From Phycisphaeraceae bacterium (GTDB lineage Bacteria; Planctomycetota; Phycisphaerae; Phycisphaerales; Phycisphaeraceae): DNA of 44,340 nt. Shown in pieces: positions 5,946-29,472 of this stretch; the stretch's first letter is position 1, and the number at the start of each line of letters is the position of its first letter. Location: NCBI GenBank assembly GCA_020831765.1, contig JAFIFY010000031.1:1-44340 (forward strand), given 5' to 3'. The position numbers and the translations under genes are program-made. A model generated the notes under the pieces. It was not told the origin of the DNA, ran no database searches, and worked only from the letters and a program-made list of their open reading frames with translations.

Positions 5946-6064
5946 GGCCCGGCGCATAAAAGGACTTGATAGTCGTTTGCGCTCCCCGGGCGCATCGGCT
6001 ACACCTCACCTCAGTTACACGCGTGGCCACGCAGCAATACCGCGAACCGACAAAGGAGCGCATC

Positions 6065-7216
6065 ATGGACGATGTGACTCGCGGCGATCTGCTGCGCCCG
6101 TTCGAGCAACTGACCGACCCACGGCGACACAACATCGTGCACCCGCTGCCCAACATCCTCCTGATCGCCATCATGGCCGTGACCTGCGGCGCCAGCGACT
6201 GGGCCGCGGTCCATCGCTGGGCCATGGCCAAGCGTTCATGGCTGGCCACCCTGCTGGACCTGAGCCGGGGCATCCCCAGCCGCGACACGTTCAGCCGCCT
6301 CTTCGCCACCCTGGACCCCGATGCCTTCGAACGCTGCTTCATCGCCTGGACCGCTGAACTGGCGCAACTGAGCGGTGGCGGTGTGGTGGCCATCGACGGC
6401 AAGACCATCCGCCGCTCGTTCGACCGGGCGATGAAGCAGCCGGGGATGCACATCATCAGCGCCTGGTGCGAGCGCAACCGCGTGGTGCTGGGGCAACTGG
6501 CCACCGAGGCCAAGAGCAACGAGATCACCGCCATCCCCAAGCTGCTGCAACTGCTCAGCCTCAAGGGCGCCACGGTGACCATCGATGCCATGGGCTGCCA
6601 GAAGACGATCGCCAGCCAGATCATCAAGTCCGAGGCCGACTACCTGCTGGCGGTCAAGGACAACCACCCCGACCTGCACGAGGACGTGAAGCTGTTCTTC
6701 GCCGATGCGATCGAACAGGGCGATGCGAAGCTGGTCCGGCTCGATCAGCCGCAGGTCGATGGCGACCACGGCCGGATCGAGACCCGTCGCATCTGGGCCA
6801 GCGCGGACGTGGCGTGGCTGAAGCGGCAGGGTCACCATTGGGAGGGTCTGCGGGGCCTGGTGTGCGTGGAAGGCACTCGTGAGACGCTGGGACCCGATGG
6901 CAAGACCGCCGTCGAGCGTCGCTTCTTCATCACCAGCCATGATCCGGGGCAGATCGGCGCCGAGGCGCTCCTGGCGATGGCCCGCGGGCACTGGGGCGTG
7001 GAGAACCGCCTGCACTGGTGCCTGGACGTGAGCTTCAACGAGGATCAGCGCCGCCTGCGCAAGGGCCACGGGGCGGAGAACTTCAGCCGCCTGTGCCGCA
7101 TCGCCTTGAACCTGCTCAAGGCCGAGAAGAGCGAACGGCTGGGCATCGCCAACAAGCGACTGGCCTGCGGCTGGGACCACGACTACCTGCTCAAAGTCCT
7201 GATGAACCTGGGCTGA
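6065..7216 (+). CDS. ISAs1-family DDE transposase
   Basis: A 383-residue transposase that moves the surrounding IS by cut-and-paste chemistry on DNA. The start ATG at 6065 follows AAAGGAG with ideal spacing. An N-terminal DDE_Tnp_1-associated domain (LTDPRRHNIVHPLPNIL) precedes the catalytic core. The core shows AIDGKTIRRS (first Asp), TIDAMGCQKTIA (second Asp), AVKDNHPDL, and WGVENRLHWCLDV with the catalytic Glu, all in the order typical of ISAs1/H-repeat proteins. Length is normal and no frameshift is seen, so it may be active. Codon use is strongly G/C-ending and close to the host genes, so transfer from a distant genome is not suggested. Confidence 0.95.
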   Translation: MDDVTRGDLLRPFEQLTDPRRHNIVHPLPNILLIAIMAVTCGASDWAAVHRWAMAKRSWLATLLDLSRGIPSRDTFSRLFATLDPDAFERCFIAWTAELAQLSGGGVVAIDGKTIRRSFDRAMKQPGMHIISAWCERNRVVLGQLATEAKSNEITAIPKLLQLLSLKGATVTIDAMGCQKTIASQIIKSEADYLLAVKDNHPDLHEDVKLFFADAIEQGDAKLVRLDQPQVDGDHGRIETRRIWASADVAWLKRQGHHWEGLRGLVCVEGTRETLGPDGKTAVERRFFITSHDPGQIGAEALLAMARGHWGVENRLHWCLDVSFNEDQRRLRKGHGAENFSRLCRIALNLLKAEKSERLGIANKRLACGWDHDYLLKVLMNLG

Positions 7217-7574: not shown

Positions 7575-9191
7575 ATGCCCATATTGCTTGTGGTCAATCA
7601 GCCTTCACTCTGGCCCGTCGAGATCGCGGGCGTGCGCATCGTCGGTGCCCGCAAGTACGTCACCGATCCGGCCTTCAACGCGATGAAGAACACGCGGGTG
7701 TTCAATCTCTGCCGGTCATACAGCTATCAGAGCCTGGGCTATTACGTCTCATTGTTGGCCGAAGCGCGAGGACATCGGCCGCAACCGGACGTGGTGACCA
7801 TCCAGGACATGAAATCCGGCGGCCTGACGCGCGCGATCGCCGATGAATTGGACCAGTTGATTCAGCGTACGCTCCGGCCGATCAAGAGCGCCCAATTCGG
7901 CTTTGACATTTTCTTCGGCCGCACCACCACCAAACGGGACCGGACGCTGGGCGCGCGTATCTTCGGCCTCTTCAATTCGCCCCTGCTCCGCGTGCAGTTC
8001 CATTGGAAGAACCGCCGGTGGCAGATCCAGAGCGTGCGTCCGATCTCGGCCGGCGATATCCCTGAGCATCACCAGGAGGACCTGCACGAGGCGGCGCGGG
8101 CATTCTTCGCCCGGCGGCAGTGGTCCGGTCCGGCTTCGCGGCCACCGCGCCACAACCTGGCCATTCTGGTCGATCCGACCGAGGAGCAGCCGCCTTCGGA
8201 TGAGGGCGCGATCGCCCGCTTCATTCGCGCCGCCAACCAGGCGGGCATGGCCACCGAACGCATCACGCGCGATGACTTTGGCCGACTGGGCGAATTCGAC
8301 GGGTTGTTCATCCGCGCAACCACGTTCGTCAACCATTACACCTACCGCTTCGCCCGCAGGGCCGCGGCTGAGCGCATGGCCGTGATCGATGATCCGGTCT
8401 CCATCGCCCGCTGCACCAACAAGGTCTACCTCGCCGAGCGCATGGCCCAGCACCGCGTCCGCATCCCGCTGACCATGATCGTCCACCGCGAGAACTTCAA
8501 GCGCGTGCCCGATGAGCTGGGCCTGCCCTGTGTGCTCAAACAGCCGGATTCAGCGTTCTCGCGCGGCGTGGTCAAGGTGTCCACCGTCGAGGAGTATCAC
8601 CATCACGTTGACAAGCTGTTGGATAACTCCGAACTGGTGATCGCCCAGGCGTACATCCCGACCGACTTCGACTGGCGCGTCGGCGTTCTGGATGGCAAGC
8701 CGCTTTATGTCTGCAAGTACTTCATGGCCCACCGGCACTGGCAGATTCAGAAGCGAGCCAGCACGGGCCGGGTGCTCACCGGGCGGTTTGAAACCCTGGA
8801 TATCGAGGATGCGCCGCCGGCGATCGTGCGAACGGCGGTCCGGGCCGCCCGGCTGATCGGTGATGGACTCTATGGTGTGGACCTCAAGCAGATCGGCAAG
8901 ACCGTGCATGTGATCGAGGTCAACGACAATCCGAGCATCGAGGCGGGCATCGAAGACCGCAAGGCCAAGGATTCGCTCTATCAGCGGATCGTGGCGTCGT
9001 TCGTCGAGCGGATCGAGCGGCTGAAATTGAGCCAGCCCAACGGCCAACTTGCCGGCCGCCGCCGCCGCCCGACCGCCGCGCCGATTCCCCCATCGGAGTT
9101 GACCACGCTGATTCCTGATCAATCCATTGAAGAAAATGGCGACGCTGGCGATCACGGCGATGGTGATTCCCACCAGGGCCGTTTGCGTTAA
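7575..9191 (+). CDS. RimK-family ATP-grasp ligase with N-terminal RLAN domain
   Basis: A 538-residue soluble protein in two parts. The first 180 or so residues match the RLAN domain that precedes some RimK-like ligases. Residues from about 200 form a RimK-type ATP-grasp fold: DDPVSIARCTNKVYLAERM, the nucleotide-binding CVLKQPDSAFSRGVVKV, and the Mg-binding VIEVNDNPSIEAG near the end. Such enzymes join a carboxylate to an amine using ATP, adding amino acids to proteins or peptides. The substrate is not known, and here the usual small-molecule partner genes are not adjacent. The last 50 residues (RRRRPTAAPIPP and beyond) are low complexity. The start ATG at 7575 places the first beta strand (PILLVVNQP) directly after it. 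It converges on the response regulator gene. Confidence 0.85.
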   Translation: MPILLVVNQPSLWPVEIAGVRIVGARKYVTDPAFNAMKNTRVFNLCRSYSYQSLGYYVSLLAEARGHRPQPDVVTIQDMKSGGLTRAIADELDQLIQRTLRPIKSAQFGFDIFFGRTTTKRDRTLGARIFGLFNSPLLRVQFHWKNRRWQIQSVRPISAGDIPEHHQEDLHEAARAFFARRQWSGPASRPPRHNLAILVDPTEEQPPSDEGAIARFIRAANQAGMATERITRDDFGRLGEFDGLFIRATTFVNHYTYRFARRAAAERMAVIDDPVSIARCTNKVYLAERMAQHRVRIPLTMIVHRENFKRVPDELGLPCVLKQPDSAFSRGVVKVSTVEEYHHHVDKLLDNSELVIAQAYIPTDFDWRVGVLDGKPLYVCKYFMAHRHWQIQKRASTGRVLTGRFETLDIEDAPPAIVRTAVRAARLIGDGLYGVDLKQIGKTVHVIEVNDNPSIEAGIEDRKAKDSLYQRIVASFVERIERLKLSQPNGQLAGRRRRPTAAPIPPSELTTLIPDQSIEENGDAGDHGDGDSHQGRLR

Positions 9192-9263
9192 ACCGGATGA
9201 TCGCTCCGTTTCGGACGGATGGCCCGGGACCGCCGGTCGCATGGCACCAAGCCCTTGCGAGGC

Positions 9264-10745
9264 TCAATCGTCGCCCAGACCCAGCAGCTTCATTTTCTTA
9301 TAGAGCGTCGTGCGGTTGATGCCCAGTTGCCGGGCGGTTTCCTGCCGATTCCATTGGTTGGCGTTGAGCGCGGCGAGGATGATCTGGCGCTCGGGTTCGA
9401 TGAGGGCTTCGATCAGTGGGACCGGATGCTTGATGTCCCAACCGCCGGCCAGTGCCGGTATATGGACCATGCCCTTGGCCGCGGTGCCGTCGGCCCCGGC
9501 GTGTTCGCCGCGCAATGAGAACGCAGCGCCGTCGGGTTGGAGCGTTTCGGGCAGATCGCTCAGTTCGATCGTGGGACGGCGGCTGAGCACCACGGCCCGT
9601 TCGATGGCGTTTTCAAGTTCGCGGACATTCCCCGGCCAGTTGTGACTGAACATCGCCCGCATCGCCTCCTCGCTGAAGCCCGTGATCACCTTGCCGACTT
9701 CCTTGCTGTGCTTCTCGAGGAAGTATTCGGCCAGGATGGGCACATCACCGCCTCGCTCCCGAAGCGCCGGCATGCGGATATTGACGACGTTGATCCGGTA
9801 GTAAAGGTCCTCGCGGAACTGCCCTTTGCGGACCAGTTCCTCCAGCGATTGATTGCTGGCGAGGATGAACCGTACATCGCAGTGCACCGTTTTCGTCGAT
9901 CCGACCGGCTCGTACTGCTTTTCCTGGAGCACACGAAGCAGCTTCAGTTGCAGCGCCGGCGTTGCGCTGTTGATTTCATCGATGAACAGTGTTCCCCTCT
10001 CGGCCGCGCTGAGCTTACCGGGCTTGTCGCTGTCGGCCCCGGTGAAGGCACCCTTGACATGGCCGAACAACTCTGATTCCAGCAGTGTTTCGGGAATCGC
10101 CCCACAGGCGAAGGTGACGAATCGGCCGGCGGCCTGGTGGCTCATGGTGTGGATCGCCCGTGCGATCATGGACTTGCCTGTTCCCGGCTCGCCGCTGATC
10201 AGCACGGTGGTGCGCGACGGCGCAACGGCTTCCACCAGTTCGTAGACCTTGCGCATCAGGTGGTTCTGACCCACGAGATTGGCCAGCCCGAATCGCTCGG
10301 TGAGTTGGGTGCGCAGCTCGCGATTCTCAGCCAGCAGGGCATGCTGGCGTACGGCCTTGTCTACGGCGATTCGCAGCTCATCATCGACGATCGGCTTGGT
10401 CAGGTAGTCGATCGCGCCCAGGCGGACCGCTTCCACCGCGTTCTCGATGCGGCCGAATCCCGTGATGGCGATGGGCACGAGCGAATCGAAATCTTGCCGC
10501 ACCCGTTTGAGCAGGTCGATGCCCGTGCATCGGGGCATGTTCATATCGGTGATGACCACGCCGAAGCGATTGGCCCGGGCCGCCCGCCGGTCGCCGTTGG
10601 AGCGGCCGGATTCCAACAGATTGATCGCCTCCATGCCGTCGTTCGCCGTGGCGGTGGCGAAACCTTCGCGCTCGAGGAATTCGCCGAGGCTCTCGGCGAC
10701 GATCGGATCATCATCCACGATCAGGACACCGGGGTTCGCGCTCAC
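9264..10745 (-). CDS. NtrC-family sigma-54-dependent response regulator
   Basis: A 493-residue transcription activator with three domains. The receiver domain has acidic residues D11-D13 and probable phosphoacceptor D67 (TDMNMP). The AAA+ domain has Walker A GEPGTGKS, the sigma-54 contact loop GAFTGA, and Walker B TLFIDEINS. The C-terminal Fis-type helix-turn-helix reads RQETARQLGINRTTLYKKM. The receiver carries an extra basic loop (RSNGDRRAARANR) just before D67. The GTG at 10745 is chosen because AAGGAG sits 6 bases before it; an ATG at 10778 overlaps the kinase gene. It lies 26 bases after the kinase stop, so the two form a two-component operon. Targets are unknown. Confidence 0.93.
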   Translation of the reverse strand: MSANPGVLIVDDDPIVAESLGEFLEREGFATATANDGMEAINLLESGRSNGDRRAARANRFGVVITDMNMPRCTGIDLLKRVRQDFDSLVPIAITGFGRIENAVEAVRLGAIDYLTKPIVDDELRIAVDKAVRQHALLAENRELRTQLTERFGLANLVGQNHLMRKVYELVEAVAPSRTTVLISGEPGTGKSMIARAIHTMSHQAAGRFVTFACGAIPETLLESELFGHVKGAFTGADSDKPGKLSAAERGTLFIDEINSATPALQLKLLRVLQEKQYEPVGSTKTVHCDVRFILASNQSLEELVRKGQFREDLYYRINVVNIRMPALRERGGDVPILAEYFLEKHSKEVGKVITGFSEEAMRAMFSHNWPGNVRELENAIERAVVLSRRPTIELSDLPETLQPDGAAFSLRGEHAGADGTAAKGMVHIPALAGGWDIKHPVPLIEALIEPERQIILAALNANQWNRQETARQLGINRTTLYKKMKLLGLGDD

Positions 10746-11711: not shown

Positions 11712-11758
11712 GCTGAGCGTCATGGGCGGGCGGCCCTCAGCCGGCCATGACGCTCAGC
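11712..11758. terminator. hairpin at the end of the lipid operon
   Basis: GCTGAGCGTCATGG (11712-11725) and CCATGACGCTCAGC (11745-11758) form a perfect 14-bp stem with a 19-base GC-rich loop. The structure spans the stop codon of the last gene (11737). No T-run follows on either strand, so it is not a canonical intrinsic terminator. It may mark or protect the 3' end of the long minus-strand transcript. Confidence 0.5.
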
Positions 11759-13122
11759 GCTCCAATCAAAGCCAGCGAGCCTGTGGCGGCGCACGCGGCC
11801 CCGAGCCAGTGCAGCCGTTCGGGCGCGTGTTCGGCCGACCAGAACCAACGCATGCTCAAGTTGAAGAGCGCTGCGGCCAGAGTGAGGGCAACCAACCCAC
11901 TGACGGCGATCAACAAAGCATCCGAGGCGGTGAACTCGGCGATCCGGGGCGATGGGGCCAGTCTCCAGGCCACGCTTGGGACCAGCAGGGCCGAGGGCAG
12001 AAAGATCAGGATCCACCCCGCCACCGCCCAGAGCCAGGTCAGCAGCCACTGGCTAAGATGCGACCGGCGGGGATCAATCCACGATACGCCGACGAACGCC
12101 AGTTGTCCGGCGAAGACCGTCACATACGCCGCATGGGAGGCCGGCTTGCCGGTTTCGAGGTGGACCAGCATCCAGAACACCGCCGGCGCGGTCACCGCGA
12201 TGATGGTGATCAGGTCGTGCTGATTTCGATTGCGCAGGTTGCGCGGCCAATAAAGCGCATGCATCAGGAACAGCAGCATCGGCGCGGGCAGCCACTGGAT
12301 ATCGGTGATGACCCAGCAGGTGTAACCGAACAGCGTGCCCCCGATCATGGCCGGCACGTTCAACGTCGAGCGGCGCCGCCAGAGCAGGACGAAGACCATC
12401 AGCAGCACCAGGACCACCGCCCGCGCCCGCAACGCATCCACCGGCAGAGGCATCATGGCCTCCAGCAGCGCGTAGGTCAGCAAGGGGATGAAGAGATTAT
12501 CGAGCCCGCGCCAGGATACGGCTTCGATCATCATCACCAGCAGGCCGATGATGATGGCGATCAGCAGAACCTCTTCGCGTCCAATGGTGGTGAACAGCAG
12601 CAGCGGGACATGCGCGCTCAGGAACGCCACGGTGAAGAACGCCACCGAGCCTTCCACGCTCTTGATCCCGTCAAGCCCCGCGTACCGAAGCCGTCCGTAG
12701 CCCACGCCGATCAGCGCCGCCACGGCATCGGCCAGGGTCAGGACCAACATCGGAATCACGAAGCCGAGCAGCTGGCCATCGGCCAGCACATAGAGCGCCG
12801 CCACCGCCGCCGGATAGCACAACTCGCCGAACGACTGGCGGCCCACGGCATGAAGCACTTTGCCGGACCGTTCGTGAATCGCCGGTATCCACCGGATACA
12901 GAGCATCAGCACGATCGCCAGCGCCGCCAACGCCACCACCATCCAGGCCTGGTCCCCGAACGCCCACGGGAAGGGAAGCACCAGCAGCCCCATGCTGACA
13001 TGCATCAGCTTGCGCACCACCTCCGGATGCGGATTGAGCCGTCGCTGCACCTGGCCAAGCAGGACGATCATGCCGCCCAGAGCGCAGATCACGACCAGCA
13101 TGGCGATCGCCTGGTCACTCAC
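11737..13122 (-). CDS. phytol/dolichol kinase-like membrane protein with extra C-terminal membrane domain
   Basis: A 461-residue polytopic membrane protein. The N-terminal 200 residues resemble CTP-dependent polyprenol kinases and CDP-lipid enzymes (dolichol kinase, VTE5 phytol kinase): VRKLMHVSMGLL near the start, LADAVAALIGVGYGR, and KSVEGSVAF. These enzymes phosphorylate a prenyl alcohol in the membrane. The remaining 250 residues add about eight hydrophobic segments that I do not recognise, making it roughly twice the usual length. Start GTG at 13122: AGGAGG lies 8 bases upstream, and the GTGA overlaps the DUF3419 stop. It is the final gene of the HMG-CoA reductase operon, so a prenyl substrate is plausible but inferred. 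Confidence 0.7.
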   Translation of the reverse strand: MSDQAIAMLVVICALGGMIVLLGQVQRRLNPHPEVVRKLMHVSMGLLVLPFPWAFGDQAWMVVALAALAIVLMLCIRWIPAIHERSGKVLHAVGRQSFGELCYPAAVAALYVLADGQLLGFVIPMLVLTLADAVAALIGVGYGRLRYAGLDGIKSVEGSVAFFTVAFLSAHVPLLLFTTIGREEVLLIAIIIGLLVMMIEAVSWRGLDNLFIPLLTYALLEAMMPLPVDALRARAVVLVLLMVFVLLWRRRSTLNVPAMIGGTLFGYTCWVITDIQWLPAPMLLFLMHALYWPRNLRNRNQHDLITIIAVTAPAVFWMLVHLETGKPASHAAYVTVFAGQLAFVGVSWIDPRRSHLSQWLLTWLWAVAGWILIFLPSALLVPSVAWRLAPSPRIAEFTASDALLIAVSGLVALTLAAALFNLSMRWFWSAEHAPERLHWLGAACAATGSLALIGALSVMAG

Positions 13123-14222
13123 CCGGCCACCTCCTCGATGCGCAGGGCACTGTAAAAAAACGCCCGGTCGCGCGATAATAGCCGCGTCGCCGGTTCATCC
13201 AGACTCAGCAGCCGTTCGGCCAGGCGTTGTGGCCGCATGCGCGGGGCGAGCATGTTCCAGTAGACCCATCGAGCGCCGGTTGGGGCAATATCGAGCATTC
13301 GTTCCAGAAGCTGGTGATGCTCGGCCTCGGGCATGTATTCGAAGATGTCGCTCAGGTTGAAGCGTGAACAGCCATCGACGATCCCCGCATCCAGGGCGCT
13401 GGCCAGATCGAGTTGATATGGATCGATGCGATCAAGACCCTGGCGAATGGTTTCAAATGCTTCCGGGCGGAGGGCGGCGGGCAGGGCGGTGCGGTGGTGG
13501 CCGGTCAGAATCCATTGCAGATACGGGTTCTCGCTGGGGTCCAGTGCGGTGAGTGCGTGGGTGGTGCGATCCAGAATCCTTTGGGCGACGGAGCCCTGGA
13601 CGTATCGAAAAAGCGCAGGATCACGACCCAGCCTGCCCATCACCGGTCGGGAAAAGAAGATTCCAAAGATCATGCGCCAGGGCAGGGTGTTCCATGTTCG
13701 ATCGTGGAACCGGCGTCGGGCTTGCGGATCGCGGGGTTCAAGCAGTGATTCCACGGTGCCGCTTCGATGGGCCAGCGGGAGAATCCATTGTCGAAACAGC
13801 CGGAAATATCGCTCGAATCGGCCGACCCCGCCGATGCCCCAGCGCTCGACGGCCGCCATCCTCGCATCCCAGAACATCCGGGCCGCTTGGCCCAGATCGC
13901 CCCGGCAACGGTGGTAGAGCCGAGCGCGGCCGGTTGCCGGGCGCGAGCCGACAAGTTCAAGCAACTCCTGGTGCGTGCAATGGCGATACGCGGCGATTCG
14001 AAGCTCCAGCGCTGCGAGCTGGGCGGGGTTCATGTCGATCGCCACGATCCGTTCCGGCCGTCGAGTGAGCATGGCCAGCGTGTTGTCACCGGCCGAAGCA
14101 ATGGAAAGACACCGATCCCCCGGCTGAATGTCCAGAGCCTCGAGCAGGATGTCGGCATCTTCCCAGCACTGGGCGTAACGGAGCACCGCGCTATCAGCCA
14201 GGACCACCCGTGCGCTTGTCAT
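13119..14222 (-). CDS. DUF3419/BtaA-like S-adenosylmethionine 3-amino-3-carboxypropyltransferase
   Basis: A 367-residue soluble protein of the DUF3419 family, which includes BtaA, the enzyme that moves the 3-amino-3-carboxypropyl group of S-adenosylmethionine to diacylglycerol in betaine-lipid synthesis. Signs are YAQCWEDADILLEAL near the start, the SAM-binding strand CLSIASAGDNTLAML, VAIDMNPAQLAALELR, and near the C-terminus FNLSDIFEYMP. The N-methylating partner BtaB is not in this window, so the product need not be a betaine lipid. The ATG at 14222 overlaps the stop of the preceding gene by 4 bases and the 3' end overlaps the next gene by 4, indicating translational coupling. The acceptor lipid is unknown; the isoprenoid neighbours make a prenyl lipid a fair guess. 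Confidence 0.8.
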   Translation of the reverse strand: MTSARVVLADSAVLRYAQCWEDADILLEALDIQPGDRCLSIASAGDNTLAMLTRRPERIVAIDMNPAQLAALELRIAAYRHCTHQELLELVGSRPATGRARLYHRCRGDLGQAARMFWDARMAAVERWGIGGVGRFERYFRLFRQWILPLAHRSGTVESLLEPRDPQARRRFHDRTWNTLPWRMIFGIFFSRPVMGRLGRDPALFRYVQGSVAQRILDRTTHALTALDPSENPYLQWILTGHHRTALPAALRPEAFETIRQGLDRIDPYQLDLASALDAGIVDGCSRFNLSDIFEYMPEAEHHQLLERMLDIAPTGARWVYWNMLAPRMRPQRLAERLLSLDEPATRLLSRDRAFFYSALRIEEVAG

Positions 14223-16927
14223 GGCTCGGTTCCCCGCTCGCCGGAATCGCCTCGTTGGATCAGCCGCACCCAACCCGCCGCGCCATCGAATTCAACCTCA
14301 TCACCGCTCCGCAGCCAGCCCATCAGGCCGGGAATGCTCACGATGGCGGGAATGCCCATCTCGCGGGCCACGATCGCCGAGTGCGAAAGCAGACTTCCAT
14401 GCTCGACCAGCACGCCCGCGGCGATGGGAAAGAGCATGACCCAGCCCGGATCGGTGCGTGAAGCGACCAGGATTCCGCCCGGCTTCATGACACCGAGGCG
14501 AGGATCGGTGATGACTTCCACCACGCCGCGCACCTGCCCGGGGCAGCAGCCCAGACCGCGCCTCCGGTCGCCTTTGCTTTGAACCTCTCCGGATTCGATG
14601 GTTTGCTTGCCGGTGAAGTGGTTGCCCTGATGCACAGCGCCACGGGTTTCAAAGCGATCATCGGGCGCTGGTGTCGAGCCATCCTGGAACGTGGCGAACC
14701 CCTCCCGCCGCATTCGCGCCAGCGCCGCCAGGCTCGGTGTGGTCAGCGTGCCTTCCACGAATCCGAGCAGTTCATCGATCTGAAGGTGGAAGACATCACG
14801 TGGATCATCGAGCTGCTCCAGTTCGTGCAGTCTCCGCCCGAACTCGACGATGATCCGCCGGACACGGCCGAAAAGCCGTGTTCGCTCGAAGCGAAGGTTC
14901 TCACGATCGCGAACGCGGCGTCCGGCGTGCTTGAGCACCCAGTTGAAAATCGTCCGTCGCAGCGGGCGACGATTAAGATGCTTGTCGATTTCCCGCCGCA
15001 CGCTCAGCGCGACCTGCTCAGCGCTGCTGGCGTGATCCGGGTCCGTATCCTCCTCGGATGCGAGCATCCGCCGCGCCAGCATGCCGACCGATCGCCACAT
15101 CGCCGACGGATCATCATGCAGCGTCGGGCTTTCCAGCTTCAGCTCTTCGAGGCATCGATCGCCGAACTTTTCCAGATACGCTTGGGCCATGCCCGCAAGC
15201 TCGGGCAGGTGTCGCAGTTTCGCGGCCAGTGCCCGCGTATCCTGATGCGCATCGCAGAGCAGGTCGATCAGGTCGGGGTGATGCGCATGGTCGAGTAGCG
15301 CCTGCTGGGCCATGGCTCGGAGCATGCGTGGCGGCTGGGCGCTGATGATGTCGCCCTGCATGGTTGTCAAGGCGCCGGGCAATCGCCGTTCCTGATCGTT
15401 GCACCACTTCTGAGCAAGCGTACCCAACAGCCCGAAGAAGATCATCGCCAGAAAGTCATTGATCAGGGGCGCATCCCAGCGGGTCAGCAGTTTGCGTTCA
15501 AGATCACGGTAATGGTCGCGCAGTTCATCCAGGCGCATCTGGTCGATCGGAACCGACGGCGCGGCCAGGGCTTCATCCAGTCGCGCGTGGAAGCGCCCGA
15601 TGCGCCGGCGAATGGTCCAGTGTGCCGCGATGAGGCGCATGGCCATGCGGGAGAAGCGGCCCATATCCTTCCATCGCGCCGCCCACCGCTGGTCGATCAG
15701 CTCATCGGCGATCGCGTCGGGGAGACCCTCCTTGACGCCCATCATCTGTTCCATGAACCGGCGATTCATGGCGAATCCCGGCAGCATCGCCAGGAGGCGA
15801 TACCAATTGAGCAGGTTGTAGAAAATCCGGCCGCGCACCAGGCCAAGCATGTTGGCGAACACCGTCGCCCGATCCTCGATGATCTCATCGGCCACGCCCA
15901 TCATCCGGCAGAACCGCCGGTAGACGTGCTCATAGACATATCGCGCGAAGCTGAAGGTCATGGGGGTGGTGACGCCGCTGTAGCTCTCGGCGATGTTGCT
16001 GTTGTCCCAGATGTTCAATGCGCCATCAGGATCTGGTAGCCGCCTTAGCGTGGTGATCGGCCGCGACTGAAGCAGATAAAGCGTGTCGCCTTCAGTGGCC
16101 CATTCAATGTCCTGGGGCCGACCGAAGTATCGTGCGGCGCGGCGGGCCAGGTCGGCGACTTCGCGGACCTCATCATCGGACAGCGAGGGTTGACAAGCCC
16201 GCTTGCCGTCCAACGCTTCCGTGACCACGCGGCCCTGATCATCACAGATGCGCAGTTCCTGCTTCGAGGCGATGGAACGGTCCAAGATGCGGCCTTCACG
16301 GTCGATGCGCCAGGTATCGGCGTTGGATGCCCCCTCGACAAGTTGATCGGCCAGTCCGAACACCGCCGAGACGATGCATACGCCGCGCTGCCCCGTGACC
16401 GGATCGGAACTGAACGCCACACCGGCCCGATCGGCCCGTACCATCCTCTGGATGAGCACGGCCGGCGCGACCGGTTCAGTCGAAGCGCCGGTTTCCTGGC
16501 GATAGGCTCCCACTTGTCGGGTTTGGCCGCTGTTCCATACCGATTCGATCGCGGCGTAGAGCGCCTCCCGATCGCGGGCATCCACACCAAGAACACTTTG
16601 AAACTGACCGGCGAAGGAATGGCCCGTGCCATCTTCATCCATCGCACTGGACCGCACCGCCACACGACATCCGGCACGCGAATCATCCACGGCCAGGGCC
16701 TGAATCGCCGCTTGCATGCCCGGCTCGAGGCGCATCAGCGTCGTGCCGCCGTTCGCCTGACTGTCCGCCGCCACTTCAGCTTCGGGCGGGAGGACCACGA
16801 ACCATGGCGGAATCGAAAACCCCGCCTGACCCAGCCTGTAAAGCGCAGCGGCCTTGCCACCCAAAAGCGATGGGTTCTTGACCAAGTCGGGCTGGACGAT
16901 GCATGGGGTCACGATGCGCTCCACCAT
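14219..16927 (-). CDS. PEP-synthase/rifampin-phosphotransferase-like phosphohistidine enzyme
   Basis: A 902-residue three-part enzyme. The N-terminal ATP-binding domain has GGKAAALYRLGQAGF, VAVRSSAMDEDGTGHSFAGQ, SDPVTGQRG and LQSRPIT. A central region of about 400 residues opens with NIAESYSGVTTPMTFSFA. The C-terminal swivelling phosphohistidine domain has SHSAIVAREMGIPAIVS with the carrier His at about residue 849. The order matches rifampin phosphotransferases and PEP-synthase-like proteins. In these, ATP phosphorylates the His, which swings to a substrate held by the middle domain. The PEP/pyruvate-binding barrel of true PEP synthase is not obvious, so a small-molecule or lipid substrate is likely. 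The ATG at 16927 overlaps the UbiA gene by 19 bases; the ribosome site is weak. Drug resistance is not implied by context. Confidence 0.8.
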   Translation of the reverse strand: MVERIVTPCIVQPDLVKNPSLLGGKAAALYRLGQAGFSIPPWFVVLPPEAEVAADSQANGGTTLMRLEPGMQAAIQALAVDDSRAGCRVAVRSSAMDEDGTGHSFAGQFQSVLGVDARDREALYAAIESVWNSGQTRQVGAYRQETGASTEPVAPAVLIQRMVRADRAGVAFSSDPVTGQRGVCIVSAVFGLADQLVEGASNADTWRIDREGRILDRSIASKQELRICDDQGRVVTEALDGKRACQPSLSDDEVREVADLARRAARYFGRPQDIEWATEGDTLYLLQSRPITTLRRLPDPDGALNIWDNSNIAESYSGVTTPMTFSFARYVYEHVYRRFCRMMGVADEIIEDRATVFANMLGLVRGRIFYNLLNWYRLLAMLPGFAMNRRFMEQMMGVKEGLPDAIADELIDQRWAARWKDMGRFSRMAMRLIAAHWTIRRRIGRFHARLDEALAAPSVPIDQMRLDELRDHYRDLERKLLTRWDAPLINDFLAMIFFGLLGTLAQKWCNDQERRLPGALTTMQGDIISAQPPRMLRAMAQQALLDHAHHPDLIDLLCDAHQDTRALAAKLRHLPELAGMAQAYLEKFGDRCLEELKLESPTLHDDPSAMWRSVGMLARRMLASEEDTDPDHASSAEQVALSVRREIDKHLNRRPLRRTIFNWVLKHAGRRVRDRENLRFERTRLFGRVRRIIVEFGRRLHELEQLDDPRDVFHLQIDELLGFVEGTLTTPSLAALARMRREGFATFQDGSTPAPDDRFETRGAVHQGNHFTGKQTIESGEVQSKGDRRRGLGCCPGQVRGVVEVITDPRLGVMKPGGILVASRTDPGWVMLFPIAAGVLVEHGSLLSHSAIVAREMGIPAIVSIPGLMGWLRSGDEVEFDGAAGWVRLIQRGDSGERGTEP

Positions 16928-17889
16928 ATCCACAACATCGGCACGACACCGAGAAACAGGTACAGAACCAGTGTCCATACGCCGCTCATGGTCTCGATCA
17001 TCCTGCCTGAGCCGGGAGCCTGGCTTCGCAGGAACCGTCTGCCCGCCCGGATCGAGAGCAGCAGGACGGCGACCGGCGCTGGCAGAATCCACGCGATGCC
17101 CGCCAGCCACGCGGCGATTCCGGCCAGCACCGCCGTGGCCGCCATCATGCTCAGCCATGTCATGATCGCCGCGCCCCGGCCCCAGAGTGATGAGTACGTC
17201 TCGACGCCGACTTCCTCATCGGCCGGAGCGCGGATTTTGCGGCCGATCTCGATGACCATTCCATTGGTGAAGCTGGCCAGCAGGAACCAGTAAAGCCCCG
17301 AGGGCGCGTGTCCATCCTCGATGCGCCAGTCGCAGGCCGTGGCGTAGAGATCGATCAACGGCATGATGAACATGTGCGAGACCATGTAGATGATCGGCCG
17401 CCCCTTGAGCCACTGGCGAGCGAAAAACTCCTTGCTCATCGCCGCCAGGTAAATCCATGGCAACAAGAGAAGCGGGATCATCTTTGGAGAGAGCCAGAGG
17501 GAGAGAAGCAACTGAAGCACTGCGCCGAGAATGAACACCACGCCAAGCTCGGAGAGCGTGACCAGGCCGCGTGGCACCGCGCGATAGGGACGAAAGCGGC
17601 TGTCCTCATCAAAATCCTTGAACTCATCGGCGATCCGTAACTGCAGAAAGAAGATGAGGCATGTGGCAAACGCCACACCAAGCGCAAGGATGCCCGGTAG
17701 CGTGTCCTCCCCCCGCAGCAGACGTGAATAACACACGGCCGAGGCGCTGAACATCAGGATCAGCGGTCCGTGTTGAAAAAGCGGAAACCGCTCGGCCTGA
17801 TAGGTCCACCACTTGCCCACGAAGCTCGGCGGAGTCGAGGCCGGCGCTGGGCGTTGCTGGGTGTTGGGAGCCTCAGACATGCTCATCAT
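16909..17889 (-). CDS. UbiA-family prenyltransferase
   Basis: A 326-residue membrane enzyme with about eight or nine hydrophobic helices. The first Asp-rich motif IADEFKDFDED (D88, D92, D94) and the second motif EIGRKIRAPADEEVG (about residue 225) bind Mg-diphosphate of a prenyl donor in UbiA-type enzymes. The first motif departs from the common NDxxD form. The family attaches prenyl chains to aromatic rings or, in archaea, to glycerol phosphate ethers. The acceptor cannot be read from sequence. Three near ATGs (17889, 17886, 17880) are possible; all overlap the HMG-CoA reductase stop. It sits between HMG-CoA reductase and the phosphohistidine enzyme. Confidence 0.85.
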   Translation of the reverse strand: MMSMSEAPNTQQRPAPASTPPSFVGKWWTYQAERFPLFQHGPLILMFSASAVCYSRLLRGEDTLPGILALGVAFATCLIFFLQLRIADEFKDFDEDSRFRPYRAVPRGLVTLSELGVVFILGAVLQLLLSLWLSPKMIPLLLLPWIYLAAMSKEFFARQWLKGRPIIYMVSHMFIMPLIDLYATACDWRIEDGHAPSGLYWFLLASFTNGMVIEIGRKIRAPADEEVGVETYSSLWGRGAAIMTWLSMMAATAVLAGIAAWLAGIAWILPAPVAVLLLSIRAGRRFLRSQAPGSGRMIETMSGVWTLVLYLFLGVVPMLWIWWSAS

Positions 17890-19222
17890 CCGGATCGGAT
17901 CGCGCGGCCGAGTCCGCATCGCCCGGTTCAGGGGCCGGCGTCGCGGCGATGCGCTTGCCACGCGCAAGACGCGCGTGGGCGCGGCTGAATTCTCCAGCGG
18001 CCAACGCGCCGATGATCGAAAGCTCGCCCGCCAGGCAGACGCCGCCGCACAACTCGGCGAAGCGATGTCCGTGCGACGCCCCGCTCAAGCCCAGCAACTC
18101 CAGGCAAGCCTTCTGTGATGGTAAGGCGGTGCCGCCGCCGACCGTACCCACCACCATGTTCGGCAGGGTTACCGCGGCGTACAGATCGCCATCCGAAGTC
18201 ACCTCGAATCGCGTCACCCCCACGGCCGCTTCGGCCACACACGCCACATCCTGCCCGCACGCGATGAAGAGCGCTGCCAGCCCGTTGGCATAGTGCCCCT
18301 GCACGCCAATGCCGCCGGACAACACGCCGCCCAACGCGCTCATCTGCCAATAGCGCGACATCTGTTCCGGCGTCGTATGCAGTCGCCGGCGCACCAGGTC
18401 GGCGGTCAGGGTGATCTCGCTGGTGACCTTGCGTCCGCGACCCAGCACCAGGGCCTGCATGGTTGCTTTCTTATCGCCGGATGCGTTGGCCTCGACGTAG
18501 GCCTGGGCGGGCTTGATCGGACAGTTGGCCAGGATGTGATCGAAGATGGCCTGCGTGGCGATGGTGACCATGTTCTGCCCGGCGGCATCGCCGGTTCGAT
18601 ATTCCAGGCTCAAGTAGACATGATTGCCCTCGATCGTCAGGCGGGTCTCGACGAGGGTGCCGTACCGTGTGGTGCCCTCACCGATGCGCTTGAGCTGATC
18701 CATGTTGGCGGTGAGCCAGAGGACGAACCGGCCGACCTGTTCGAGATTGGCGAAGGCAAAGCCCGGCGTCCTCGCCACCCCATCGCCCACCATCATCGAA
18801 GCGCAGCCACCGGCCTCGGTGATCAGTGCTGCGCCACGGCTGTATGAAGCCACCAGCGCCGCCTCCGTCGTGGCCAGCGGGAAGTAGTAGTCGCCCTGAC
18901 CGAACAAGCCGTTGATGCGCAGCGGCCCGGCCAGTCCGATGGGTATCTTGGCCGTCCCGATGTACTGCTCGATGTTGCGTTCAAAGCCCCCGGCGTGCTC
19001 GAGCGCCCAGGAATCGAGGATCGCATCACGGACGCCATCGCCTCGATCGCCCAACAGCGACCAGCGGCGTTCGATGGCCGATGGACTGATGCGCGAACCT
19101 CCGGGCACGCGCGGCGGGACGTTCTCGGTTCGCTGCTCAAGGCGCTTGGCCAGCTCCTCGGGCGTATGGCAGGCCATCAGAGTGGTGATCTGTCTTCTGA
19201 TTCGCTCGATGTCCGTTGCCAT
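17873..19222 (-). CDS. 3-hydroxy-3-methylglutaryl-CoA reductase
   Basis: A 449-residue enzyme that reduces HMG-CoA to mevalonate with NAD(P)H. All catalytic elements are visible: E120 in ATTEAALVAS, GDAAGQN (211-217), the Lys of SGDKK (248-252), Asp325 in CGQDVA, and His416 in FSRAHARL, with GTVGGGT (359-365) in the cofactor domain. The IPIGLAGPL and SGDKK segments resemble the class I (eukaryote/archaea-like) form, without a membrane anchor. The ATG at 19222 has GGAGG 7-8 bases upstream. Most bacteria of this sort make isoprenoids by the MEP route, and no other mevalonate-pathway gene is in the window. The enzyme may therefore serve the specialised pathway of the genes behind it. Confidence 0.92.
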   Translation of the reverse strand: MATDIERIRRQITTLMACHTPEELAKRLEQRTENVPPRVPGGSRISPSAIERRWSLLGDRGDGVRDAILDSWALEHAGGFERNIEQYIGTAKIPIGLAGPLRINGLFGQGDYYFPLATTEAALVASYSRGAALITEAGGCASMMVGDGVARTPGFAFANLEQVGRFVLWLTANMDQLKRIGEGTTRYGTLVETRLTIEGNHVYLSLEYRTGDAAGQNMVTIATQAIFDHILANCPIKPAQAYVEANASGDKKATMQALVLGRGRKVTSEITLTADLVRRRLHTTPEQMSRYWQMSALGGVLSGGIGVQGHYANGLAALFIACGQDVACVAEAAVGVTRFEVTSDGDLYAAVTLPNMVVGTVGGGTALPSQKACLELLGLSGASHGHRFAELCGGVCLAGELSIIGALAAGEFSRAHARLARGKRIAATPAPEPGDADSAARSDPDDEHV

Positions 19223-19273: not shown

Positions 19274-20926
19274 TTATGCCTGGGCCGGTCGGCGGCTGAG
19301 CATGCGTTCGAGGGCGGGATAGTCGATCTTGGCACGATGTCGGGCGTCCACGGGGATCGACCTGACCGGAAGCAAGCGGATGTTGCCGAATCGCTTAAGC
19401 ATACCCTCAAGGTCGCTTGCGATGTCCTGCCGCGAAATCGCCGGGTCCGACTCGACCACCAGCGTCGGCTCGCCCCGGAAATTCACCAATGCACTTCGGA
19501 CCACGCCCGGCACTTCCGAAGCGGCGCATTCCACGGCCAGCGGAAACAGCGTGCCCTGATCCGTCGTCAATCTCGCCTGCCATCGTCCAAGCAGCCAGAG
19601 CCGACTGCGGGCATCGATGTATCCGCCATCGCCGGTGCGATGCCAGATGCGGTGGCCCGCCATGATCTTGCTTTGCGCATCGCCTCGACCGTCCAGATAG
19701 CCGCGCACCACGTGATCGCCCGTAACAATAATCTCCCCCGCCCCCGGAATCGCCCCCGGAAGTCCGGGCTGCGCGCACATGTCTTCCAGTGATTCAAGCG
19801 TCGGAATGTCACGTTCGTGCCCATCGTCGGGTGCCGCGGCGGGCGGCGGCCGCGTCAGAATCCTCACGTTGATCCCCTCGACCGGACAGCCCGCGATCAG
19901 GCCATGGCCCTCAGCGACGGCTTGATGGGTATCGGGCGTGATCTGCTTCCATGCCACGTGCGCGATGGGTTCGGCCTCGGTCGAGCCGTAGACCACCCAG
20001 AGCTCGGCTTCAGGCGCGATGCGCTCGAGCTTGCGCATGACCCGTGGAAAGACGGGCGCGCCTCCGGTGTCGATTCGCCGAACACCGGACAGGTGAATGC
20101 CCTGGCCGATGCAGTGATCGGCCAGTCGCTCAAGAACCGTCGGGGAGGCGACGGTGCGGATGATGTTCTCGGCCTGGATCTGTTGGGCCAATGCGGCCGC
20201 ATTCAGCGCGGCAACATCAAAGCGGAGCCCTTCGGGCAGAACGCTGGTCAAGCCTGACGCGAGATTGGCCAGCAGGAAAATCGGCATCGTCGTCAGGTCG
20301 ATCTGGCCGGCTTCGAGTTTCAGGTCACGTTCCAGAACCCGGTGCTGCGTACTCAGAAAGCCGTGGGTGCGAACGATCGCTTTGGGCTCGCCGGTGCCTC
20401 CGCTGGTGAAGGTGATCAGGGCCGGATGATCGCTGTTGACCGCATGGGGAAGCGATGGGGTGGGGGCCTGATTCATGGCGGCTTGCCAGTTGCCGGCCCA
20501 GGGCAGGGGCATGCCGGTGGTCATGCGAAGACCGACCCTGCGCAACTCCCTGAACAGCGGGGCAAGCAGCAGCAGGCGTGTCGGGGCGATGATCATGCCC
20601 GGTGTTGTCCGGCGAAGCGCTGCGCGAATGGTGGCGAGATTGATCTCCGGTCCGGGGATGACCACGGTGATGGCCGCGCGCCAAGCGCCCAGCAACAGGG
20701 CGTAGAGCGTCGTGGACATCGGAACCAACGGCATCATGCGATCGCCGGGTTGCAGGCCGCGCTGGACCAGCATTCCAGAGATGCGCTGGGCTTGCTGATC
20801 AAGCTCGCGATAGGTGACGGTGCGGCGTCGGCTGCCGACGCCTTTGATGATGGCGGCGCGCTCGGGGTGTTCTTCGGCCCGTTCGTGCAGCCGATGGGCG
20901 AGATTGCGCTGAACGCTTGGGATCAT
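19274..20926 (-). CDS. AMP-dependent acyl synthetase/ligase, OleC-like
   Basis: A 550-residue adenylate-forming enzyme that activates a carboxylic acid with ATP. The phosphate loop TFTSGGTGEPKAI (about residue 175), the nucleotide motif VVYGSTEAEPIAHV, and HRTGDGGYIDARSRLWLLGR are clear. The YGSTEAEPI form and overall layout resemble OleC, the beta-lactone synthetase of long-chain olefin synthesis, more than ordinary fatty acyl-CoA ligases. No OleA, OleB or OleD lies nearby, so the olefin pathway is not supported. A Pro/Gly-rich insert near residues 370-400 is encoded by a C-rich tract (19735-19762). The start ATG at 20926 lies two bases after the stop of the GNAT gene, so the two are coupled. 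HMG-CoA reductase follows after 51 bases. Confidence 0.82.
   Translation of the reverse strand: MIPSVQRNLAHRLHERAEEHPERAAIIKGVGSRRRTVTYRELDQQAQRISGMLVQRGLQPGDRMMPLVPMSTTLYALLLGAWRAAITVVIPGPEINLATIRAALRRTTPGMIIAPTRLLLLAPLFRELRRVGLRMTTGMPLPWAGNWQAAMNQAPTPSLPHAVNSDHPALITFTSGGTGEPKAIVRTHGFLSTQHRVLERDLKLEAGQIDLTTMPIFLLANLASGLTSVLPEGLRFDVAALNAAALAQQIQAENIIRTVASPTVLERLADHCIGQGIHLSGVRRIDTGGAPVFPRVMRKLERIAPEAELWVVYGSTEAEPIAHVAWKQITPDTHQAVAEGHGLIAGCPVEGINVRILTRPPPAAAPDDGHERDIPTLESLEDMCAQPGLPGAIPGAGEIIVTGDHVVRGYLDGRGDAQSKIMAGHRIWHRTGDGGYIDARSRLWLLGRWQARLTTDQGTLFPLAVECAASEVPGVVRSALVNFRGEPTLVVESDPAISRQDIASDLEGMLKRFGNIRLLPVRSIPVDARHRAKIDYPALERMLSRRPAQA
19735..19762. repeat. C-rich low-complexity tract with CCCCCGGAA core
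   Basis: Three C5 runs, two of them as CCCCCGGAA, lie inside the acyl-ligase gene and encode PGAIPGAG on the minus strand. The same core recurs in six other places in the window. Confidence 0.6.
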
Positions 20927-20928
20927 GA

Positions 20929-21924
20929 TCAGTTACCCGGCATCAGATCGCGACGAAAGAGGGCATAGCGGCGGATGATCCGATTTCCGTCGGTGAACAG
21001 ATTGGTCGATCGACTGGATTCGTGCATCAGTGCGTGGATGATGCGCTCAAGATCGAGCTTCGCTCCGGCTTCGTAGACACGGGCGAGCAGGATGCTTCCC
21101 AGGCCGGCCAGGCTGCGTTCAGGCACCACGGCAAGACTCTTGACCACCATGGTCCTGGTCTTGCCGGCTCGACTCCGCTCCAGATGATCGGGAATGGCAA
21201 AGACAAAGCCCACCGGCTCACCTTCCCGCCGCGCCAGCAGAACCAATCGCGGATCCACCAGGCTCCGGATCGGCTCGTAGAGGATCGCGAATACCTTCAG
21301 CTCGATGGGTTGGAAGCGATGGGCATGGCTGAACGCGGCCATGGATATCCGCCAGATCGCTTCCAGTGCGTTCGGCCAGTCCGCCATGTCCAGTGGCTCA
21401 ATGACCAGCCGCTGCTCAAGCAATCGTTGCTCGATGCGAGACAATCGGGCATTCTTCATCGTGGGCGGTTGGATGATTGAGGAATAGTAATTCGCCTCGG
21501 GCCGGAACCTGGCGCGCGTGAAACATTCGACGAAATATCGGGGATGATCCGGCTCCAGGAAGAACGGCGGTTGGTCGCCGCGCTCGACGATGAGCCGGTA
21601 GGTGTGCCAGGTATCGCCATCCATGGGACCGAGCGCCTGCCCGCATCCGTGTTCGGTCAGCAGCCGGCAGGCGTGGTCAAGGATGTCTGCGCCGGATTCG
21701 ACATCATCGGCGTGGAAATGTCCGATGATGCCGGGCTTACCGTCATTCTGGGCGGGGCCAGGCCGCCACCAGAGTGAACAGCGGGCCGACGGTCCGGAAG
21801 GGTTGGTGTTCAGCAACATCAGATCAGGCCGCTGATGATGCAGCGCGTTCCACGCCGGAAGCCGCGTGCCCCAGCGGTCCAGGGCCGCGCGCCAATCGGT
21901 GAACGTTTCCAGTCCGCCGCCCAT
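20929..21924 (-). CDS. YghO-like GNAT-fold acyltransferase
   Basis: A 331-residue protein resembling the YghO group of GNAT-fold proteins. The tell-tale segment is ALGPMDGDTWHTYRLIVE followed by PPFFLEPDHPRYFVECF. A second GNAT half carries VGFVFAIPDHLE and the acetyl-CoA-loop-like VVPERSLAGLGSILLARVYE. GNAT proteins move an acyl group from CoA or a carrier to an amine. The actual reaction of YghO-like proteins is not known. The ATG at 21924 has GGAGG 8 bases upstream. It is 27 bases after corA and 2 bases before the acyl-AMP ligase, suggesting that the ligase activates the acid this protein transfers; that is inference. Confidence 0.72.
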   Translation of the reverse strand: MGGGLETFTDWRAALDRWGTRLPAWNALHHQRPDLMLLNTNPSGPSARCSLWWRPGPAQNDGKPGIIGHFHADDVESGADILDHACRLLTEHGCGQALGPMDGDTWHTYRLIVERGDQPPFFLEPDHPRYFVECFTRARFRPEANYYSSIIQPPTMKNARLSRIEQRLLEQRLVIEPLDMADWPNALEAIWRISMAAFSHAHRFQPIELKVFAILYEPIRSLVDPRLVLLARREGEPVGFVFAIPDHLERSRAGKTRTMVVKSLAVVPERSLAGLGSILLARVYEAGAKLDLERIIHALMHESSRSTNLFTDGNRIIRRYALFRRDLMPGN

Positions 21925-29441: not shown

Positions 29442-29472
29442 TCCCTCACCCAGCGCCGGGAGCAGCAGCGTC

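Follow-up and report, generated by a model that had tools for sequence, protein, structure and literature searches.

A seven-gene block found in several bacterial phyla unites an FcrA-like reductase with UbiA, dikinase and DUF3419 proteins and may specify an alkyl aminolipid

Several described systems resemble, in part, the one that concerns us here. FcrA (Grossi et al. 2025, PMC11948995) is a fatty-acyl-CoA reductase with the fold of class-I 3-hydroxy-3-methylglutaryl-coenzyme A (HMG-CoA) reductase (HMGR); in the excerpts of that paper on which we draw, its gene lies beside one for wax synthase, and no larger block like ours is mentioned. In the elb operon of Myxococcus (ElbD; PMC9131029), fatty-acyl activation and reduction feed the synthesis of an ether lipid, much as we propose below, but FAR1-like, ACS, ACP and AGPAT domains are joined in one protein, and the excerpted text names no UbiA, DUF3419 or dikinase protein. 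Similar excerpts describe, from several environments, ether lipids of non-isoprenoid type whose glycerol cores are acyl/alkyl or dialkyl (PMC8343106, PMC10667739). The BtaA/BtaB pair, archaeal digeranylgeranylglyceryl phosphate (DGGGP) synthase, and rifampin phosphotransferase together with PigC/RedH each resemble one further protein of our locus. That locus, a block of seven genes, lies in a 44,340-nt stretch of DNA from a Phycisphaeraceae bacterium (contig JAFIFY010000031.1; 'the window', hereafter, meaning the whole stretch), which corresponds to contig C193 in a genome of 4.71 Mb (193 contigs, 98.38% complete).

The seven genes read along the minus strand, from 21924 down to 11737, and encode in order a tandem GNAT (GCN5-related N-acetyltransferase) protein, an AMP-ligase, an HMGR homologue, a UbiA homologue, a phosphohistidine dikinase, a DUF3419 protein and a CTP_transf_1-like membrane protein (Table 1). 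The superfamily of every one of these proteins is already known, as is FcrA; what appears to be new is the combination of genes, and its conservation. The same block recurs across phyla, and this conservation is well supported. Together the genes may form a self-contained route that leads from fatty acid, by way of fatty alcohol, to an aminolipid with an alkyl chain, perhaps one with an ether linkage and an N-acyl group—a reading to which we would give roughly even odds, the product class being something we infer. Searches of open-licence papers (subscription journals fell mostly outside) for this cluster or for ether betaine lipids turned up FcrA but no cluster of this kind, in keeping with a preliminary description of this DNA, made from the sequence without database searches, that knew of no pathway with this set.

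That description had placed five minus-strand open reading frames, reductase to last gene, in one operon, and their positions and strand are as it gave them. Neighbours overlap from stop to start: by 4 bases at the last gene (GTG 13122, stop 13119), by 4 between the DUF3419 and dikinase genes (ATG 14222, stop 14219), by 19 between the dikinase and UbiA genes (ATG 16927, stop 16909), and by 8, 14 or 17 between the UbiA and reductase genes, for a UbiA start at ATG 17880, 17886 or 17889 (stop 17873). The family names hold as well, since PF00368, PF01040, PPDK_N with PEP-utilizers, and DUF3419 all score above their Pfam cut-offs. The unit is thus real, but it is longer than five genes: the AMP-ligase gene sits 51 nt upstream of the reductase, the GNAT gene 2 nt beyond the ligase, and both are conserved with the block. 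At the downstream end, where a 14-bp hairpin had been noted, there is an inverted repeat with 18-nt arms, 94% complementary and 11 nt apart, that overlaps the end of the last gene at its stop codon. It is missing from the list returned by a terminator scan, so a hairpin is present here and terminator function is not established.

Table 1. Positions of the block genes and of the inverted repeat in the window
Feature	Coordinates	Strand	Basis or remark
Tandem-GNAT protein, candidate (N-)acyltransferase	20929..21924	-	331 aa; PF00583, fold
AMP-ligase, OleC-like / PRK09274-like, candidate for fatty-acyl activation	19274..20926	-	PF00501
FcrA-like class-I HMGR homologue, candidate alcohol-forming fatty-acyl-CoA reductase	17873..19222	-	PF00368, FcrA substitutions
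UbiA-superfamily membrane transferase	16909..17889	-	PF01040; start ATG 17889, 17886 or 17880
Three-part phosphohistidine dikinase, rifampin-phosphotransferase/PigC-like	14219..16927	-	PPDK_N, PEP-utilizers; ATG 16927
DUF3419 protein, candidate 3-amino-3-carboxypropyl transferase	13119..14222	-	PF11899, tree
CTP_transf_1-like membrane protein, GTG start	11737..13122	-	alignment, PF01148 in relatives
Inverted repeat at operon end	11712..11758	.	11712-11729 / 11741-11758

A scan of genomes of named species for relatives of the reductase matched 413 stretches and gave 232 relatives, the best 80 of which were kept. With the window and G119, a second genome of the class, these make 82 loci, in which the block genes were scored by tblastn at 65 bits or more. 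(Families were rebuilt in this way because Louvain clustering had lost some genes, including the last one of the window's block, under spurious opposite-strand reading frames in loci of high GC content.) All six of the other block genes are present in 16 loci, at least four in 22, at least one in 28 and none in 54; the counts cover the fetched stretch, and several of the lower ones reflect contig ends. The GNAT gene occurs in 20 of the 82, the AMP-ligase in 17. Of 198 genomes searched in the class with FcrA only, two carry the HMGR homologue, a count that shows patchiness rather than phylum-wide absence; in G119, the second of the two, all seven genes occupy one contig in the same order as in the window. 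Other hosts of several block genes belong to Bacteroidota, Gammaproteobacteria (L006, L009), Rokuibacteriota (L027), Tritonobacter/Auribacterota (L010) and Planctomycetaceae (L016, L024), and one is a PVC (Planctomycetota–Verrucomicrobiota–Chlamydiota) bin (L018). The commonest order is reductase, UbiA, dikinase, DUF3419, CTP_transf, GNAT, ligase; that of the window and G119 is one rotation of it and that of L027 another, and L009, L010 and L018 are rearranged. The five genes first described are thus kept together in relatives across phyla, and the scattering that the preliminary description had named as the outcome that would count against it did not occur. Three other candidates for membership were rejected: the next gene upstream, encoding CorA, has no match in loci L003–L085, a histidine kinase has none in the loci, and a sigma-54 regulator has scattered matches only.

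Inheritance of the seven proteins is correlated. Pairwise distance matrices agree for all 21 gene pairs (r 0.51–0.96, with 0 of 999 permutations as high; 16–22 loci), in line with a block that moves as a unit, in a test made noisy by over-long starts in some members, above all in the last gene. Across 50 of the 80 genomes, chosen by FcrA and phylogenetically uneven, block-type UbiA occurs in 27 and block-type DUF3419 (E <= 1e-58) in 29: both in 26, UbiA only in one, DUF3419 only in three and neither in 20 (Fisher p 7e-10, uncorrected for kinship). Where the fetched locus did not include the remaining block genes, these were often on another contig, as in L093, L094, L095, L097, L099 and L100. 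In L093, a WOR-3 genome, the UbiA, dikinase, CTP_transf, GNAT and ligase genes are consecutive and the DUF3419 gene is 3 kb further on; in L094, the ligase, UbiA and dikinase genes are together. Four Saprospiraceae blocks (L036:17235-17813, L034, L041 and L048) carry, between GNAT and ligase, a gene for a 190-aa protein with no Pfam match that looks SRPBCC-like by eye.

The reductase matches PF00368 with 346 bits. Set against 6hr7 (archaeal) and 8ecg (plant), it retains the catalytic Glu, Lys, Asp and His, but Ser684, Lys735 and Leu862 (human numbering) are replaced by Glu, Ser and Phe. All three substitutions are described for FcrA in PMC11948995, in which Ser684 becomes Glu, the conserved Lys a small residue and Leu862 a bulky one, and the one FcrA whose assay the excerpts report did not reduce HMG-CoA. 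The tetrad is kept in all 27 block-linked reductases, in which the Ser684 column holds Glu 26 times and Asp once, the Lys735 column Ser 24 times and Ala three times, and the Leu862 column Phe throughout. At the other 55 FcrA loci, the Ser684 column is Glu in 54 and Arg in one, and the Leu862 column Phe in 53 with two gaps; the Lys735 column varies (Ala 19, Cys 12, Ser 11, Gly 11, Leu 1, Asn 1), and the catalytic His column has one Gln and two gaps. We take Lys735 to be the HMG-binding lysine of statin-bound HMGR work, and the same residue as one that is numbered differently in print. The excerpts of PMC11948995 give the HMG-binding lysine as Lys795, possibly a misprint. The complete active site to which the preliminary description drew attention is therefore there, and is evidence for a reductase of HMGR fold, but not for HMG-CoA as its substrate. 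On the strength of its residues, we regard the protein as a strong candidate for an FcrA-like fatty-acyl-CoA reductase: it shares with FcrA the class-I HMGR fold, the tetrad, the three pocket substitutions and a host with no detected HMG-CoA synthase, and differs in belonging to a seven-gene block.

Block-linked and other FcrA proteins interleave in the tree, so no single FcrA clade accounts for membership of the block. Two curiosities surfaced among these loci. The FcrA genes of L007, a 'Proteobacteria' bin, and L008, a WOR-3 bin, are almost identical, which suggests mis-binning. Contigs L061 and L068 are labelled Klebsiella pneumoniae, yet their FcrA genes and neighbours are like the ones in uncultured Steroidobacteraceae, and in the FcrA tree a UBA964 bin is found beside L061. 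The Klebsiella label is probably wrong.

The DUF3419 protein matches PF11899 over its full length (221.9 bits), as BtaA does, and 17 positions are strictly shared by 30 block-group and 6 BtaA-type rows of the alignment; 13 more are fixed differently. In the tree, the 30 block-group rows and five BtaA proteins from btaAB pairs fall on opposite sides of a branch with 100/100 support, and the block-group clade is itself supported at 100/98. Methyltransferase domains were confirmed next door for four of the five reference pairs, the fifth (L089) being a near-copy of L087. The block holds no BtaB-like methyltransferase, a search that did not extend to the rest of the host genome. Because they form a sister clade and have no methyltransferase partner in the block, the block proteins cannot simply be called BtaA. 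When DUF3419 alone was used to search 392 genomes of the phylum, 18 had a match at E <= 1e-50, host and G119 included; in seven of the other 16, further block genes lie on the same stretch (L119–L124, and also L128, in which the UbiA and ligase genes are some 7 kb away). The DUF3419 profile matched nothing in the PDB up to E 1. Block-type DUF3419 genes unaccompanied by other block genes lie, in a single genus of the phylum, at L125 (near 9018-10088), L126 (1670-2725) and L127 (9231-10301), in L125 and L127 near a gene that is ferrochelatase-like by eye. A third DUF3419 type, of 356 aa and on a long branch, is present in a block-bearing Microscilla genome (L088:3231-4301), flanked by genes that appear Rieske-like and SDR (short-chain dehydrogenase/reductase)-like.

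The AMP-ligase matches PF00501 (158.7 bits), with NF006754 its best NCBIfam model (349.7 bits against a cut-off of 478), and falls well below the OleC models (202.9 bits, cut-off 900; 161.4 bits, cut-off 850). The GNAT protein scores 27.1 bits for PF00583 (cut-off 20.7), and its AlphaFold2 model (pLDDT 87.9) finds the tandem GNAT MAB_4324 (7q3a) as top Foldseek match, at E 1.9e-12. The last protein comprises an N-terminal part of some 220 aa and a C-terminal part of some 240 aa. In Bacteroidota it is about 220 aa long; the additional C-terminal membrane part, bringing it to about 460 aa, is present in the window, G119, L010, L018 and L024. E34, R37, K38, H41, D132, G158, E200, D208 and N209 are invariant in its alignment, and by motif we assume it to be dolichol/phytol-kinase-like. 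For the earlier name, polyprenol-kinase-like, there is a profile match among relatives: PF01148 (CTP_transf_1) matches 5 of 15 aligned members, the window protein included in the 15, with a best E of 2.5e-5, but the window protein itself has no Pfam, NCBIfam or PDB match.

PF01040 is matched by 14 of 16 aligned members of the UbiA family. Among solved structures, the profile finds 6m31 (E 1e-5), and a structural model (pLDDT 91.3) finds 7bpu, a DGGGP synthase, as top Foldseek match (E 1.7e-4; TM 0.59/0.66). Both comparisons thus place archaeal DGGGP synthase nearest among solved structures, but identity in the structural alignment is 15% and the profile E-value only 1e-5. The first Asp motif is altered but kept, with D85, E86, K88, D89 and D93 invariant across the 16 aligned members. 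In place of the second, KDFEDMEGD in 6m31, these have E..RK......E (E211, R214, K215 and E222 invariant).

From these parts we assemble the following route. The AMP-ligase, judging by its family, would activate a fatty acid to acyl-CoA, and the FcrA-like enzyme, whose FcrA-specific residues argue strongly for this step, would reduce it with NADPH to a fatty alcohol. The CTP_transf_1-like protein, and possibly the dikinase also, may phosphorylate the alcohol. The UbiA-type enzyme would then act in the membrane, passing the alkyl unit to an acceptor that is probably glycerol-phosphate-like, to give an ether; this is the weakest step. By analogy with BtaA, the DUF3419 protein may add 3-amino-3-carboxypropyl from S-adenosylmethionine. 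Its amine is likelier to be acylated than methylated, because the block has no BtaB-like methyltransferase and does have a tandem GNAT, which would perform the acylation. The single lipid-directed unit proposed at the outset, with DUF3419/BtaA-like chemistry and an ATP-driven phosphotransferase, survives in this scheme. Gene neighbourhoods favour it too. Genes for MMPL-family transporters, found within the blocks of L006 and L009, give a lipid-export context. At L037:6408-11074, a Legionella bin, the gene for an FcrA relative stands after those for a FAD oxidase (PF01565 and PF02913) and an SDR and before one for a PlsC-type acyltransferase; we take the oxidase to be of alkylglycerone-phosphate-synthase (AGPS) type, and the row is a compact candidate ether-lipid operon. 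A DUF374 acyltransferase-like family lies near FcrA in nine gammaproteobacterial loci (e.g. L044:10760-11524; one member scanned).

A number of observations weigh against it. Allylic diphosphates are what UbiA enzymes ionise; as a donor, a saturated alkyl diphosphate would be out of the ordinary, and none of the 16 aligned members keeps the second Asp motif. The kinase assignment is a weak superfamily match in relatives that the window protein does not share. At 54 of the 82 loci FcrA stands outside any such block, and the co-occurrence sample is uneven, as noted above. One of the 30 block-group DUF3419 rows, L098, is not beside block genes. Among the 16 other genomes of the phylum with DUF3419, nine show none of the other block genes within the fetched stretch (some stretches being short), and block-type UbiA, present somewhere in ten, was not matched in six; four of these six are of one genus, in which DUF3419 stands alone with 45–54% identity in the best match, so that the subfamily has at least one role outside the block. 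Every step, finally, is a prediction from sequences and models, and the product one that we infer.

Might the lipid be prenylated instead? In a mixed alkyl/prenyl lipid, UbiA would use a prenyl diphosphate from the methylerythritol phosphate (MEP) pathway on an acceptor made by other genes, and FcrA would supply a separate fatty-alcohol part. Such a lipid would accord with the UbiA superfamily membership by Pfam and fold, with DGGGP synthase nearest, with the invariant acidic residues D85, E86, D89 and D93, and with IspG in the host. It sits poorly with the loss of the second Asp motif (DMEGD in 6m31), and with a block that holds no prenyl diphosphate synthase, and we consider it rather unlikely. 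The prenyl-ether or prenylated aminolipid first guessed at persists in this form, although no evidence here demands a prenyl group.

More speculative is an archaeal-style logic applied to fatty chains, which we think improbable. The FcrA-like enzyme would make an allylic fatty alcohol from trans-2-enoyl-CoA, two kinases would form from it a diphosphate that mimics prenyl diphosphate, the DGGGP synthase-like UbiA enzyme would ionise this and make the glycerol-phosphate ether, and the DUF3419 and GNAT proteins would add an N-acylated aminocarboxypropyl headgroup. If true, this would be ether-lipid synthesis without AGPS or plasmalogen reductases. An AGPS route in the block genomes was considered and rejected: at E <= 1e-40, AGPS was found in 1 of 52 genomes, the query's own, a threshold at which distant AGPS could be missed.

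The dikinase bears on another alternative. It matches PPDK_N (190.5 bits) and PEP-utilizers (73.6 bits), and its best solved relatives, 5fbs and 5hv1 (E 3e-50), are labelled phosphoenolpyruvate (PEP) synthase in the PDB table; we take both to be rifampin phosphotransferase. A 'PEP synthase' model, NF004881, scores 755 bits, under its cut-off, but PEP synthase can be set aside: no PEP-binding C-terminal domain is matched, and TIGR01418 (PEP_synth) reaches 206.5 of the 739.75 bits required. RedH (284.2 bits, cut-off 1350) and PigC (273.0, cut-off 1300) match nearly the whole protein, and rifampin phosphotransferase (RPH) scores 258.3 against a cut-off of 999. By these comparisons the protein is rifampin-phosphotransferase/PigC-like. 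It shares with those enzymes the N-terminal ATP and C-terminal phosphohistidine domains and the lack of a PEP-binding domain match; it differs in a divergent middle domain, and falls below every NCBIfam cut-off listed. Could it be a condensing enzyme of PigC/RedH type, in a pathway to a pigment or small molecule and not to a membrane lipid? The RedH and PigC scores do exceed those of RPH and PEP_synth, but all are far under their cut-offs, the block has no pyrrole genes, and the MMPL transporter genes within two of the blocks point to a lipid. We doubt it.

Two further readings are very improbable. That the reductase makes mevalonate for prenyl chains, as the preliminary description supposed, has in its favour the PF00368 score and the complete tetrad, but the HMG-binding residues, among them the Ser and Lys that bind the HMG carboxylate, are replaced in 27 of 27 block-linked proteins, the assayed FcrA was inactive on HMG-CoA (PMC11948995, as excerpted), and both host and G119 have IspG of the MEP pathway and no HMG-CoA synthase detected (0 of 2, by a search positive in 4 of 14 controls and made for this mevalonate gene alone); on pocket residues and genome content together we reject a mevalonate/isoprenoid operon. 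That FcrA here serves wax-ester storage, its neighbours being unrelated, would fit its published role (PMC11948995, as excerpted) and the wax synthases scoring above cut-off in 8 of 52 genomes—five of them with block-type UbiA, so that the alcohol may have other uses there, a further point against the route we prefer—but neither host nor G119 has a wax synthase match, and the neighbours are co-inherited.

Elsewhere in the window, a haem biosynthesis cluster occupies 25579-30561 on the plus strand; its first gene encodes a fusion of ferrochelatase with the N-terminal domain of glutamyl-tRNA reductase, and uroporphyrinogen decarboxylase follows further on. At 34933-41186, a PD-(D/E)XK nuclease gene adjoins one for a UvrD-type helicase-nuclease, AddB/AddA-like by order, and at 5966-7216 there is a DDE transposase with a DDE_Tnp_1-associated domain.

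If the alkyl aminolipid route is correct, FcrA, known from wax esters, would extend to an aminolipid context, and the block would be a concrete genetic candidate for part of the non-isoprenoid ether lipids found in the environment. The DUF3419 family divides into BtaA and a second clade, and annotators have reason not to label these genomes mevalonate users. Spread over several phyla, the seven genes appear to constitute a conserved pathway for a lipid with no known assignment.

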